From NCBI GenBank assembly GCA_012838545.1, contig DUPC01000023.1, positions 1-38,668 on the forward strand: DNA of 38,668 nt. The letters run 5' to 3'. This document shows positions 13,852 to 20,079 of the stretch, piece by piece. A program made the translations under genes and the position numbers. Every line of letters begins with the position of its first letter. Positions within the stretch are counted from its first letter, which is position 1. Below the pieces are notes generated by a model. That model made no database searches. It saw nothing but the letters and a program-made list of their open reading frames with translations, and was not told the DNA's origin. The stretch comes from Acholeplasmataceae bacterium (GTDB taxonomy: Bacteria; Bacillota_I; Bacilli_A; ML615J-28; CAG-313).

Positions 13852-14523
13852 TTACCCTTTCAAATATAAGTAAAGTTTGGTTAAAGCCCGCTTTTCGATT
13901 CGTGAAACATAACTGCGACTGATTTTTAGGCTTTTGGCAATTTCCCGTTGAGTTTCAATAAAATGATTATTTAAACCAAAACGCCGACTGATGATTTCCA
14001 ATTCCCGGTCGGTTAAAATTTTTAAAGCTTCTTTAATCCTGGCGTTTTGTTCCTCGGCAATTAATACTTCGCTGGCCAAAGGGCTGGGATCCTCCACGAT
14101 GTCGTTTAAGTGGATTTCATTGCCTTCTCGGTCTTCCCCAATCGGCGCAAATAAACTGGAAGTGTCTTTGCGTTTCTTGTTGCTTCTTAGGTGCATTAAA
14201 ATTTCATTTTCAATACACCTCGCCGCATAAGTCGCAAGCTTTGTATTGGATTTAAAATTATAAGTATCTACAGCTTTGATTAGACCGAAAGCTCCAATAG
14301 ACAGTAAATCGTCACGGTCCTCTCTGGTGTTTTCAAACTTTTTGACTATGTGGGCAACCAAACGCAAATTGTGTTCGATTAAAATGTCGCGCGCTTTTAA
14401 GTCTCTTTGTTCCCAAAGTGCCAAGTATTTTGCTTCCTCCTCGGGAGATAGTACTTCGGGAAAACTTTGTGAGTTAAGAGCCCCTATTAAAGGCAAAATA
14501 AGCAAAGATAATAAATTAAACAT
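13852..14523 (-). CDS. sigK: RNA polymerase sporulation sigma factor SigK (pro-sigma-K)
   Basis: A 223-residue sigma-70-type factor. Region 2 reads IEHNLRLVAHIVKKFENT, ISIG-like LLSIGAFGLIKAVDTY and KLATYAARCIENEILMHLR, closely matching sigma-K. Region 4 has the helix-turn-helix QREIAKSLKISRSYVSRIEK. Before SFPEVLSPEEE there is a hydrophobic leader (MFNLLSLLILPLIGALNSQ), equivalent to the pro-sequence that B. subtilis SpoIVFB removes to activate sigma-K in the mother cell. The gene is continuous, with no skin-type interruption. Start ATG at 14523 (minus), behind AAAAAGGAGG; the longer frame to 14622 overlaps the divergent yqeG promoter. Presence of sigK argues for an endospore-forming ancestry. 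Confidence 0.93.
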   Translation of the reverse strand: MFNLLSLLILPLIGALNSQSFPEVLSPEEEAKYLALWEQRDLKARDILIEHNLRLVAHIVKKFENTREDRDDLLSIGAFGLIKAVDTYNFKSNTKLATYAARCIENEILMHLRSNKKRKDTSSLFAPIGEDREGNEIHLNDIVEDPSPLASEVLIAEEQNARIKEALKILTDRELEIISRRFGLNNHFIETQREIAKSLKISRSYVSRIEKRALTKLYLYLKG

Positions 14524-14539
14524 GGAACCTCCTTTTTGA

Positions 14540-14568
14540 TAGACAAAATCAGGGAAATTATGTATAAT
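14540..14568 (+). promoter_or_regulatory. Promoter for yqeG-yqeH-yqeK-rsfS
   Basis: TAGACA (14540-14545), 17-bp spacer, TATAAT (14563-14568), 28 bp before the yqeG start, in the divergent gap with sigK. Confidence 0.75.
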
Positions 14569-14595
14569 AGTAAATAATGAAAGGATTACAACAAG

Positions 14596-17266: not shown

Positions 17267-17299
17267 AATTTTTTAAAAAAGAAAGAAGTGATTTGGCAA

Positions 17300-17563
17300 A
17301 TGTTACTTTCCGAGTTGGCGGATAAAGACGTTATCAACGAGAAGGACGGAAGTAAAATCGGAAAAATAACCGATGTCGAAATTGATACCAATACCGGCAA
17401 CATTACAAGCATCAAAGTGCAAGCAGGTATGAAAATCATGCAATTGGTTACCAGAAAAGACGCAACCAGAATTCCGTGGCAAAATATCATCAAAATCGGT
17501 AACGATGTTATAATCGTCGACTATTCTTATCACGGTAAAACCTTAAAACAATCCTCAAACTAA
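17300..17563 (+). CDS. ylmC: PRC-barrel protein of the YlmC/YmxH family
   Basis: An 87-residue PRC-barrel protein. The N-terminus LLSELADKDVINEKDGSKIGKITDVEID matches the YlmC/YmxH sporulation-associated family pattern, with a second half reading IPWQNIIKIGNDVIIVD. Its molecular role is not known; YlmC and YmxH genes are widespread in spore-forming Firmicutes, and YlmC is often induced during sporulation. ATG 17300 is chosen over GTG 17288 because it aligns with family N-termini and has GAAGTGAT upstream. It converges on the GerQ-carboxypeptidase gene across a shared terminator. Confidence 0.85.
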   Translation: MLLSELADKDVINEKDGSKIGKITDVEIDTNTGNITSIKVQAGMKIMQLVTRKDATRIPWQNIIKIGNDVIIVDYSYHGKTLKQSSN

Positions 17564-17586
17564 AAACCCCTTTTAGGGGTTTTTTT
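17563..17586. terminator. Bidirectional terminator between the ylmC-like and gerQ-dac genes
   Basis: AAAACCCC (17563-17570) pairs with GGGGTTTT (17576-17583) around a 5-nt loop. T and A runs on either side make it work both ways. Confidence 0.9.
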
Positions 17587-18682
17587 AGTCACTAGCTCCC
17601 GGAATCGGTTTGGCAAAATCGTTTGGCGTATCGACCGTTATTCCGTATAAATTAAAGGCATATTCCAACAAGTTGACATGGTCTTCCCAATCGTTGGGAT
17701 CGTTTAAGGTAACAACAATAAATTCTTGCCCGTCTTGTTCTGCGGCGGTTACCAAGGTTCTGCCTGCCCGACGCGTAAAACCGGTTTTTCCCCCAATTAC
17801 ATAATAAACATTATGAAGCAAGCGATGTTTATGGATAAAGTTGTATTCATTGCCTAATTGGGAAGTTGTTTGATATGATTTGGTGCCAATGATTTTTCGG
17901 AAATTTGGATTGGTTAATCCATAGCGCATCAAGCGGGCTAAGTCGTAAGAAGGGGAAAGATTGCTAGAAGGGACGTCTAATCCGGAAGGATTGGTAAAAG
18001 TTGTTTGGTTTAGGCCTAAAGCCTTGGCTTTTTGGTTCATAAGATTGACGAATGAGGGCACATTACCCGCCACGTATTCCGCAATCGCCCACGCCGCATC
18101 ATTCCCCGACCTCAACAACAAGCAATATAAAAGGTCGCGCATCGACAGCGTGTCCCCTGCAACCAGCGGACAAGAAGATGGCGTTTGGGCGGCTGCTTCC
18201 GCACTAATTGTAACCAAATCGTTCAAACTACTTGCTTCTAAGGCGACGATAGCGGTCATGAGTTTTGTAAGACTGGCAATCGGGAGTTCGGAAAAAGCGT
18301 TTTGTTCAAAAACGATTGAACCGGTATTGCCGTCTATGACAATCGCGCTTTGGGCGCTGATAGGAGGTTGCCTAAGCGCTTTTTCAAATGGATATGATTG
18401 GCTGGTTCTTTTAAATTTAGGGGCAACAGTGGGGTAATTGATTTTTTCATCAAAAACAATATATTTAAGAAAAATGGAAGGTAATATTATGGTTTTTCCG
18501 GAAACTTTTTCCTCAATGATATAATGATCGGTATTAGCTTGGGTGATAATACCTTTAAATACCTTTTCGCCCTCGTCATAATCCATATGAAAACTTGCTG
18601 CTTTACCTAAATTAAGGCGCAAAATATTCTCGATATACGATTGTTCCGTAATTTTTTCTCCTTTTTTTGAAAAGTTAGTCAT
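17585..18682 (-). CDS. GerQ-domain / D-alanyl-D-alanine carboxypeptidase fusion
   Basis: One continuous 365-residue reading frame with two modules. Residues about 10-83 match the spore-coat protein GerQ: QSYIENILRLNLGKAAS, then EKVFKGIITQANTDHYII, a TIILPSIFLKYIVFDEKINY ending, in the same order and spacing as GerQ. Residues about 108-350 are a complete S11 D,D-carboxypeptidase: S137-L-T-K140, S192-G-N194 and K299-T-G301, plus the DacF-like GKTGFTRRAGRTLV. No signal peptide or membrane anchor is visible, unlike ordinary DacF/PBP5. GerQ in B. subtilis sits in the inner coat and is needed to localise CwlJ for germination. Here a coat-type domain may place a peptidoglycan-trimming enzyme in the mother-cell compartment or coat. 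Start ATG 18682 has AAAGGAATT upstream; ATG 18712 has no ribosome site. Confidence 0.88.
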   Translation of the reverse strand: MTNFSKKGEKITEQSYIENILRLNLGKAASFHMDYDEGEKVFKGIITQANTDHYIIEEKVSGKTIILPSIFLKYIVFDEKINYPTVAPKFKRTSQSYPFEKALRQPPISAQSAIVIDGNTGSIVFEQNAFSELPIASLTKLMTAIVALEASSLNDLVTISAEAAAQTPSSCPLVAGDTLSMRDLLYCLLLRSGNDAAWAIAEYVAGNVPSFVNLMNQKAKALGLNQTTFTNPSGLDVPSSNLSPSYDLARLMRYGLTNPNFRKIIGTKSYQTTSQLGNEYNFIHKHRLLHNVYYVIGGKTGFTRRAGRTLVTAAEQDGQEFIVVTLNDPNDWEDHVNLLEYAFNLYGITVDTPNDFAKPIPGASD

Positions 18683-18714
18683 CAAATTAATTCCTTTCTT
18701 TTTTTCGTTCATTT

Positions 18715-18744
18715 TAATATATGAGAAAAATCCTTGTTTGATAA
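18715..18744 (-). promoter_or_regulatory. Candidate promoter of the gerQ-dac fusion, sigma class ambiguous
   Basis: On the minus strand CATATATTA (18723 down to 18715) fits the mother-cell -10 patterns (sigma-K CATAnnnTA; close to sigma-E). The same bases also give a sigma-A reading: TTATCA (18744-18739), 17-bp spacer, TATATT (18721-18716). No clear sigma-K or sigma-E -35 was found, so the class is open. Confidence 0.4.
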
Positions 18745-18777: not shown

Positions 18778-20079
18778 CTAAGAAGGTTCTTTTTTATTCC
18801 AGGGAACCGTAAAGGAAAAAAGCGCCGCCAAATAACCCAAAAAGGCCGAAAAAGCCATTAAGCTTTGATAAAAGACCATAAATGAAATAAATTCGCCAAA
18901 GTTTAACTGAAAAGGTATATTCATCGGCTTTAAGACTTGGGTAGTCGCGATGCGATAGATTAAAAAATAGTTAAATAAAAACAAGGGAATGACATATAGG
19001 GAAATCGGTCCAACCAGATAAAAAAAGCCAAAAAAGGAAAGAATGATACCGGGAAGAAAAAACAACAGATAGCACAAATCGATTAAAGGAATCAACAAAT
19101 CGATGAAAGTAAAGTATAGGGGAAAAAAGTTTCTTTGTTCCCAAGGTTTAACCGCTTTCAAGCCTTCAATCATGCCTTTCGCCCAACGCATACGTTGACT
19201 TAAAAAACTTTTTATGCTTGAAGGAACAATTGTAAAACTGACTGCTCGCGGTTCAAACAAAACGGCTCTTTGGGCTTTTAAGATTTTCCAAGTCAGCACA
19301 ATGTCTTCCCCCTCAACCTCATCCCAGCCGCCCAGTTCCTTAACCAAAGCGGTAACGTAAATACTGAAAGCTCCTTGGGCAACCAGAGTGGAACGATAAT
19401 GGGATTGGAGATGCTTGATGGCATTGATGCTTAAAAAATAATCATAGTATTGCATTTTGGTCAAAAGGGTTTCTTGGTGATTAAGTACAAGGATTCCCCC
19501 CGCTACCGCTCCGGTTTTTTCATCTTGGTTTATCCTATTCGCAATCAAGGAAATCGCTTTTTCGTGCAAAACCGTATCCGCATCCAAACAAACGAAATAT
19601 TTTGTGTTTACCTCTTTTAAACCCTTATTTAAGGCATGGTGTTTGCCTTTCTGGGGCTCGGTTAGGATTTTAATTTTTAAGGCCAAATTCTTTCGCGCTT
19701 TTTCGGCTATTTTTCGGGTGCCATCGTTACTGGCGTTGTCGATTACAATAATTTCCAAAGAGCCTTGATAATCTTGCCAGGCGAGAGCTTGTAAAGTGGC
19801 ATAAAGGTGTTTTTCTTCATTGTGGGCGGGAATCAAAACCGAAAGGGGTTGTTGATAGGAACCGATTGGATAATCGTGTTTGACGAAAAGCAAAGTAATG
19901 AATAGATTAGCGGAAAGGTATCCAGGTAAATAAGCAATTCCGCTGATTATGGTAATTGCGATCGTCTTGTTAAAAAGTTTGGTCAATTCTTCAATCCAGG
20001 CAAGTGATAAATAAACGGAAAAAGATAACCAAAGAACAGAACCGCCTACCATAATTAAAAAGTGGGTTGTTTTTTTCAT
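18778..20079 (-). CDS. Processive family 2 glycosyltransferase, membrane-bound
   Basis: A 433-residue GT2 enzyme with two N-terminal membrane helices (about 6-28 and 42-66), a cytoplasmic catalytic domain and several C-terminal helices after residue 320. Catalytic signature: DNASNDG (114-120), DAD (166-168), EGED (256-259) and QRMRW (295-299), the D,D,D,QxxRW set of processive synthases such as PgaC/IcaA, NodC and cellulose synthase. The product is probably a beta-linked amino-sugar or glucan chain exported through the enzyme itself, but the sugar cannot be read from sequence. Start ATG 20079 follows GGGGGA. The gerQ-dac fusion lies 95 bp downstream on the same strand with no obvious terminator between. 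Confidence 0.88.
   Translation of the reverse strand: MKKTTHFLIMVGGSVLWLSFSVYLSLAWIEELTKLFNKTIAITIISGIAYLPGYLSANLFITLLFVKHDYPIGSYQQPLSVLIPAHNEEKHLYATLQALAWQDYQGSLEIIVIDNASNDGTRKIAEKARKNLALKIKILTEPQKGKHHALNKGLKEVNTKYFVCLDADTVLHEKAISLIANRINQDEKTGAVAGGILVLNHQETLLTKMQYYDYFLSINAIKHLQSHYRSTLVAQGAFSIYVTALVKELGGWDEVEGEDIVLTWKILKAQRAVLFEPRAVSFTIVPSSIKSFLSQRMRWAKGMIEGLKAVKPWEQRNFFPLYFTFIDLLIPLIDLCYLLFFLPGIILSFFGFFYLVGPISLYVIPLFLFNYFLIYRIATTQVLKPMNIPFQLNFGEFISFMVFYQSLMAFSAFLGYLAALFSFTVPWNKKEPS

Follow-up and report, generated by a model that had tools for sequence, protein, structure and literature searches.

GerQ (YwdL) of Bacillus subtilis is made only in the mother cell, lies in the inner coat of the spore and is required for the localisation of CwlJ; it is the core of the protein that is needed rather than its N-terminus (PMC11405398; PMC3161080). 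GerQ forms rings by itself, its ring contacts fall into two groups in the cryo-EM structure, and the published contact between GerQ and CwlJ has been modelled only (PMC11405398). CwlJ acts on the cortex from the coat side, and SwsB is thought to modify the cortex (PMC11841064). It is an unsettled question by what means GerQ keeps a cortex-lytic enzyme in the coat.

Here we describe a gene that bears on this question. In the window, by which we mean the whole stretch of 38,668 nucleotides analysed, from the draft genome of an Acholeplasmataceae bacterium, one frame joins a GerQ domain to a peptidase of the S11 family. The fusion has the domain, the fold, the N-terminal helix motif and most contact residues of one ring face in common with GerQ/YwdL (PF09671, TIGR02728; 8ZRA), but it is without the Q/P-rich N-terminal extension, carries a C-terminal peptidase, has its other ring face altered and scores below the equivalog cut-off. 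CwlJ provides a working analogy, being a peptidoglycan enzyme without a signal peptide that is brought to the coat with the help of GerQ; however, CwlJ is a separate protein that cuts glycan strands, whereas the enzyme described here, a member of a peptide-cutting family, is linked covalently to GerQ. On the enzyme side, the nearest solved structure is that of B. subtilis DacB (PBP5*; 3MFD), a sporulation DD-carboxypeptidase of the same S11 family, which differs from the fusion in being exported, in having a C-terminal domain and in the placement of its gene in dacB-spmA-spmB. Short S11 enzymes of the Haloplasmataceae (loci L152-L159) share the catalytic domain, the clade and the absence of a C-terminal domain with the fusion, but have a signal peptide and no GerQ. 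The best NCBIfam score is that of the PBP7-type DD-endopeptidases (PRK11669), which likewise have no C-terminal domain, but at 114.5 bits against a cut-off of 294 the fusion is not a member of that group. With this score and the missing C-terminal domain, the activity may be that of an endopeptidase as well as that of a carboxypeptidase.

Results

One Frame Encodes a GerQ Domain and an S11 Peptidase

The positions of the gene, its parts and its neighbours are collected in Table 1. An earlier note on this DNA had proposed a GerQ-S11 fusion here, leaving the strand unstated. We find the uninterrupted frame on the minus strand, and in the Pfam profile search Spore_GerQ (E=4e-23, 81.6 bits against a cut-off of 25) and Peptidase_S11 (E=1.2e-59, 202.2 bits against a cut-off of 27.6) each matched their own half of the protein. 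Both halves are far above chance level, and these scores rule out a chance domain match. The active-site residues named beforehand, S137xxK140, S192GN194 and K299TG301, are exact, and the three intact motifs are invariant across an alignment of 11 S11 sequences (the fusion and ten relatives). The start was placed at the ATG at 18682; with the alternative in-frame ATG, at 18712, the protein would be ten residues longer.

Table 1. Features of the GerQ-S11 fusion locus (positions in the window).
Feature	Position	Strand	Basis and remarks
sigK-type sporulation sigma factor gene	13852..14571	-	NF004471 SigK subfamily over cut-off, 290 bits
YlmC/YmxH-family sporulation protein gene	17288..17563	+	TIGR02888 over cut-off; convergent neighbour
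GerQ-S11 fusion gene	17585..18682	-	Single frame, 365 codons and stop
Peptidase_S11 domain, residues 102-329	17696..18379	-	Pfam PF00768; PDB 3MFD DacB, E=7.5e-62
KTG motif, residues 299-301	17780..17788	-	S11 alignment
SGN motif, residues 192-194	18101..18109	-	S11 alignment
SxxK motif (SLTK), S137-K140	18263..18274	-	S11 alignment
Linker, residues 84-107	18362..18433	-	Alignment and frame check; position of the signal peptide of relatives
Spore_GerQ domain, residues 13-83	18434..18646	-	Pfam PF09671; genome profile match at the same bases; model matches 8ZRA
Ribosome-binding-site-like AAAGGA	18692..18697	-	Sequence; 9 nt ahead of the fusion ATG
Upstream element ACAAGGATTTTTCTCATA	18720..18737	-	Resembles the cwlJ upstream region
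Family-2 glycosyltransferase gene	18778..20079	-	Pfam; top NCBIfam model PgaC-like, under its cut-off; immediately upstream of the fusion

Residues 1-90 were modelled with AlphaFold2 together with 12 standalone GerQ sequences, the two domains being modelled apart. The model has one helix and five strands (mean pLDDT 84), and its best match in the PDB is the cryo-EM structure of GerQ, 8ZRA (E=3.6e-7, TM 0.82 by target length), so that the comparison suggested in the earlier note came out in favour of GerQ. A model of the full-length protein is confident across the S11 part and has DacB (3MFD) as its top match; the low confidence of its GerQ part is due to the absence of other GerQ rows from that alignment. 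After 8ZRA, the GerQ-domain model matches mostly ring proteins of the Sm/Hfq fold, for example 6gwk (TM 0.82 by target length, E about 6e-3). Neither Hfq nor Sm is mentioned in the GerQ cryo-EM paper (PMC11405398); judging from the model, the spore coat may have in GerQ a ring protein of the Sm fold.

GerQ Stands in the Place of a Signal Peptide

No signal-peptide-like stretch was found in residues 1-120 of the fusion. The highest 15-residue Kyte-Doolittle mean is 1.57, reached within a GerQ strand, whereas the signal peptides present in all eight Haloplasmataceae S11 relatives have values of 2.4-3.4; this bears out the lack of a signal peptide claimed beforehand. A signal peptide is also absent from both other frames across the junction. 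It is therefore very unlikely that one indel fused gerQ with an S11 gene complete with its signal peptide, and the joining of two genes in this way was rejected. In the alignment the junction coincides with the start of the mature part of the relatives (RQPPISAQSAIV in the fusion, AQIDVSAQSAML in genome G107), so that GerQ and the linker occupy the place of the signal peptide. The earlier note had held that a standalone gerQ together with a signal-bearing enzyme in relatives would speak against the fusion; both do occur, but as separate genes, and the fusion stands.

The Enzyme Half Belongs to a Short S11 Subfamily

Among 395 genomes of the class, the S11 sequences nearest to the fusion are those of short secreted enzymes found in eight of eight Haloplasmataceae genomes (57-65% identity); these genomes also encode a DacB of their own (47-51%) as well as DacF-like copies (about 31-35%, one of them partial). 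In a maximum-likelihood tree the S11 half of the fusion falls inside the Haloplasmataceae clade (100/100), as sister to the copy of G107 (97/79) and apart from every DacB and DacF; the other members of this clade were seen solely in Haloplasmataceae. An identity as DacB is ruled out by the separate clade and by the location of spmA-spmB next to another gene, and an identity as DacF by the tree position and the lack of linkage to the sigF operon. The DacF-type label used in the earlier note thus has to be replaced: the enzyme groups with the short Haloplasmataceae subfamily, and among solved structures DacB is its nearest relative. The branch of the S11 half is of normal length, which indicates that this half is under constraint. 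The GC content of this part is 46%, compared with 27-32% at the Haloplasmataceae loci, and this base composition speaks against a recent transfer from Haloplasmataceae; if any transfer took place, it was not recent. The S11 half would have come either by an older transfer or by inheritance accompanied by many losses.

Short secreted S11 enzymes without a C-terminal domain, distinct from DacB and DacF, occur once per genome in the eight Haloplasmataceae. In several of these the gene is found upstream of omt-U32-udk-greA-mtnN and close to sigK-yqeG-yqeH. Genes of both groups are also near in the window, where, however, the place of the fusion is between ylmC and a ROK-like gene.

The GerQ Half Is Strongly Diverged but Keeps Most Contacts of One Ring Face

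In the GerQ tree the terminal branch of the fusion is 2.6, compared with a median of 0.05, so this half did not arise by recent duplication of the gerQ that the genome carries. Its score with the TIGR02728 equivalog is 70.2 bits, below the cut-off of 88.95, whereas the genome's own gerQ reaches 105.6. Because of the strong divergence and the score below the equivalog cut-off, the GerQ half need not act like ordinary GerQ.

The N-terminal GerQ helix EQSYIENILRLN is retained. At the ring contacts (GerQ numbering), six of the seven residues of group B (I99, I102, Y114, L158, Y160, F163, I167) are identical in the fusion, Y114 being lost, as against two of the six of group A (F117, W123, F128, I141, L152, L154), where W123 is deleted and L154 is changed to proline; this contrast is small in number, and we offer it as a lead and not as a result. 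The same positions hardly vary in 14 standalone GerQ proteins from the fusion's family and the Haloplasmataceae. With proline at L154, a neighbouring subunit on that side should find it harder to pair its strand, and the fusion could attach to normal GerQ by one side without building rings.

The Fusion Is Seen in a Single Genome

GerQ scores over the profile cut-off in 105 of 395 class genomes and in 51 of 392 genomes of an overlapping phylum sample. The earlier note had suggested looking for the same fusion in related genomes, but none of these genomes holds a second GerQ-S11 fusion, and the gene described here is the only one in them that joins an over-cut-off GerQ match to a long frame with another domain. 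Three weak GerQ matches in long frames were set aside as unrelated and below the cut-off; from our reading of the sequences, the frames encode a Fic-like protein (G208), a membrane protein with a glycosyltransferase next to it (G332) and a transporter (G308). GerQ was found in none of 77 S11 loci from a scan of GTDB contigs, a scan that is insensitive to diverged GerQ, and among 222 loci GerQ and S11 co-occur only in copies of the fusion locus. The fusion is known from one draft assembly, and its genus is represented by one genome. A GerQ-peptidase fusion was not found in the open literature. Within the searches and literature covered, the fusion is a new architecture of known parts.

Gene Neighbourhood and Canonical Sporulation Genes

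The glycosyltransferase gene lies on the same strand as the fusion, and the two could be co-transcribed. Within the family its only homologue is in G006 (50%), where it is cut by the contig end and its neighbour is out of view. The S11 and glycosyltransferase genes are absent at the ylmC-ROK stretch in the family members having that stretch (G001, G003, G006 and G010).

The regions upstream of the fusion and of cwlJ are alike at 18 of 22 bases, at a near-equal distance to the start, which was reached in 2 of 3000 shuffles for a pair picked after inspecting several genes. This is weak evidence for ACAAGGATTTTTCTCATA as a possible promoter. A full sigma-E or sigma-K consensus was not found upstream of the fusion. 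The motif was also considered as the mark of a wider regulon, for which no support was found: it has one further site (one mismatch), not placed as the promoter of a recognisable spore gene.

The flanks of the fusion are native to the genome. The single-copy YqeH of the window is generally closest to its own family (39-43%, compared with 35-39% in the Haloplasmataceae), with the best E-values in the family, and rsfS, ROK, hrcA and dnaK follow the gene order of the family on both sides of the fusion. These two observations rule out a mis-binned contig, and for the fusion to be an assembly artefact a native contig would have to contain two breakpoints.

The genome (G000; 1.71 Mb, 96.4% complete, 0% contamination reported, a draft of 65 contigs) has the sporulating background that had been supposed, including the separate gerQ, cwlJ and dacF that the earlier note asked about. 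A standalone gerQ directly follows a CwlJ-type gene (contig C3, L145), dacB is followed by putative spmA and spmB (L146), dacF lies upstream of a sigF-type gene (L147), and spoIVA scores over the cut-off; sigK-type and YlmC/YmxH genes are in the window. We assigned the names dacB, dacF, spmA, spmB, sigF and cwlJ from sequence, position and partial profiles, not from equivalog cut-offs. With standalone gerQ, cwlJ, dacB and dacF present, the fusion is an extra protein, an addition and not a replacement. It is not adjacent to cwlJ, which adjoins the other gerQ. The only PF07486 (CwlJ/SleB-type) match in the genome is at G000:C3:37919-38236; SleB was not found in this profile search, and the cortex may therefore be lysed by CwlJ or by other enzymes.

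Discussion

The domain scores, the active-site motifs, the S11 tree, the normal branch length of the S11 half, the replacement of the signal peptide by GerQ, the canonical sporulation genes, the largely retained group B face and the cwlJ-like upstream region speak for one reading, to which we give a probability of roughly one half: the fusion would be a DD-peptidase that is made in the mother cell, is not exported, docks in the coat via GerQ and acts on the cortex. A short S11 enzyme of the Haloplasmataceae kind would have gained GerQ where the signal peptide stands, and the fusion protein would be made in the mother cell and kept in its cytoplasm. Docking on canonical GerQ would then carry it to the inner coat. 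An ordinary GerQ subunit would bind there to the kept face (I99, I102, L158, Y160, F163, I167), whereas the damage to the other face (W123 deleted, proline for L154) would leave the fusion as a side-branch or cap that does not build rings. Working from the coat side, much as CwlJ does on glycan strands, the enzyme would trim or cut cortex stem peptides that contain D-Ala, either late in sporulation or during germination. Here we infer location, timing and substrate of the fusion protein; coat tethering and cortex action agree with the known roles of GerQ and CwlJ. Against this reading, the fusion is present in one assembly and in no relative, so that the joined form shows no conservation; the long GerQ branch and the changes at near-invariant residues could mean loss of function; and a full sigma-E or sigma-K promoter match is absent. 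The outer forespore membrane would also part a coat enzyme from the cortex during sporulation, as it would CwlJ.

The strongest competitor, which we think unlikely though still to be taken seriously, is an accidental or failing fusion, in which a rearrangement placed a stray GerQ copy before the peptidase and so trapped the enzyme in the cytoplasm, out of reach of its substrate and with no useful role, and GerQ is decaying. The fusion is found in one genome only, the canonical genes are all present, making it dispensable in principle, and W123, L154 and Y114 are lost from a domain whose branch is 2.6 against a median of 0.05. However, a GerQ divergence this large implies long persistence in an open frame, and that frame runs for 365 codons without a stop; the catalytic half is intact with a normal branch length, and the N-terminal helix has been retained.

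GerQ could, in a more improbable scheme, be an oligomerisation or binding module outside the coat, giving a multimeric S11 enzyme or penicillin-binding protein, cytoplasmic or membrane-associated, that has no part in sporulation. GerQ does form rings by itself (PMC11405398), and its fold is near that of Sm/Hfq ring proteins, but the one damaged ring face speaks against self-assembled rings. The fusion has no proven sporulation promoter and the glycosyltransferase gene beside it is not among the known spore genes; on the other hand, every studied GerQ protein is a spore protein, and mature peptidoglycan is absent from the cytoplasm.

We give little credence to an enzyme moonlighting in the mother cell cytoplasm, where it would act on muropeptides or cell-wall precursors, removing terminal D-Ala from soluble precursors or recycled fragments late in sporulation, GerQ only bringing it near the forespore. 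The missing export signal and the intact active-site motifs would allow this, but S11 enzymes are known for extracytoplasmic work, the closest relatives are secreted, and trimming of cytoplasmic precursors would block cortex cross-linking. Least credible of all is an assembly artefact joining two organisms or two genes: the source is a single 65-contig draft and the nearest kin of the S11 half are in another order, but both flanks are native (YqeH; the rsfS, ROK, hrcA, dnaK order), the alternative junction frames are without a signal peptide, the 46% GC of the S11 part is unlike the 27-32% of Haloplasmataceae, and the reported contamination is 0.

A natural fusion of GerQ with a peptidoglycan enzyme suggests that GerQ itself is a targeting module, and the residues kept and lost point to the ring face that matters. 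A bolder extension, which we hold only tentatively, is that GerQ is a modular coat-targeting domain, and that the fusion is a one-faced subunit capping or decorating GerQ rings, displaying a DD-peptidase at the coat-cortex boundary as the peptide-cutting partner to the glycan-cutting CwlJ. In that case the S11 enzyme would gain access to spore peptidoglycan with no need of export and would be, to our knowledge, the first natural covalent cargo of GerQ.

Elsewhere in the window, a three-domain protein with DUF438, hemerythrin and PAS domains is encoded at 865-2208 and adjoins a ferritin-like gene (2298-2786).
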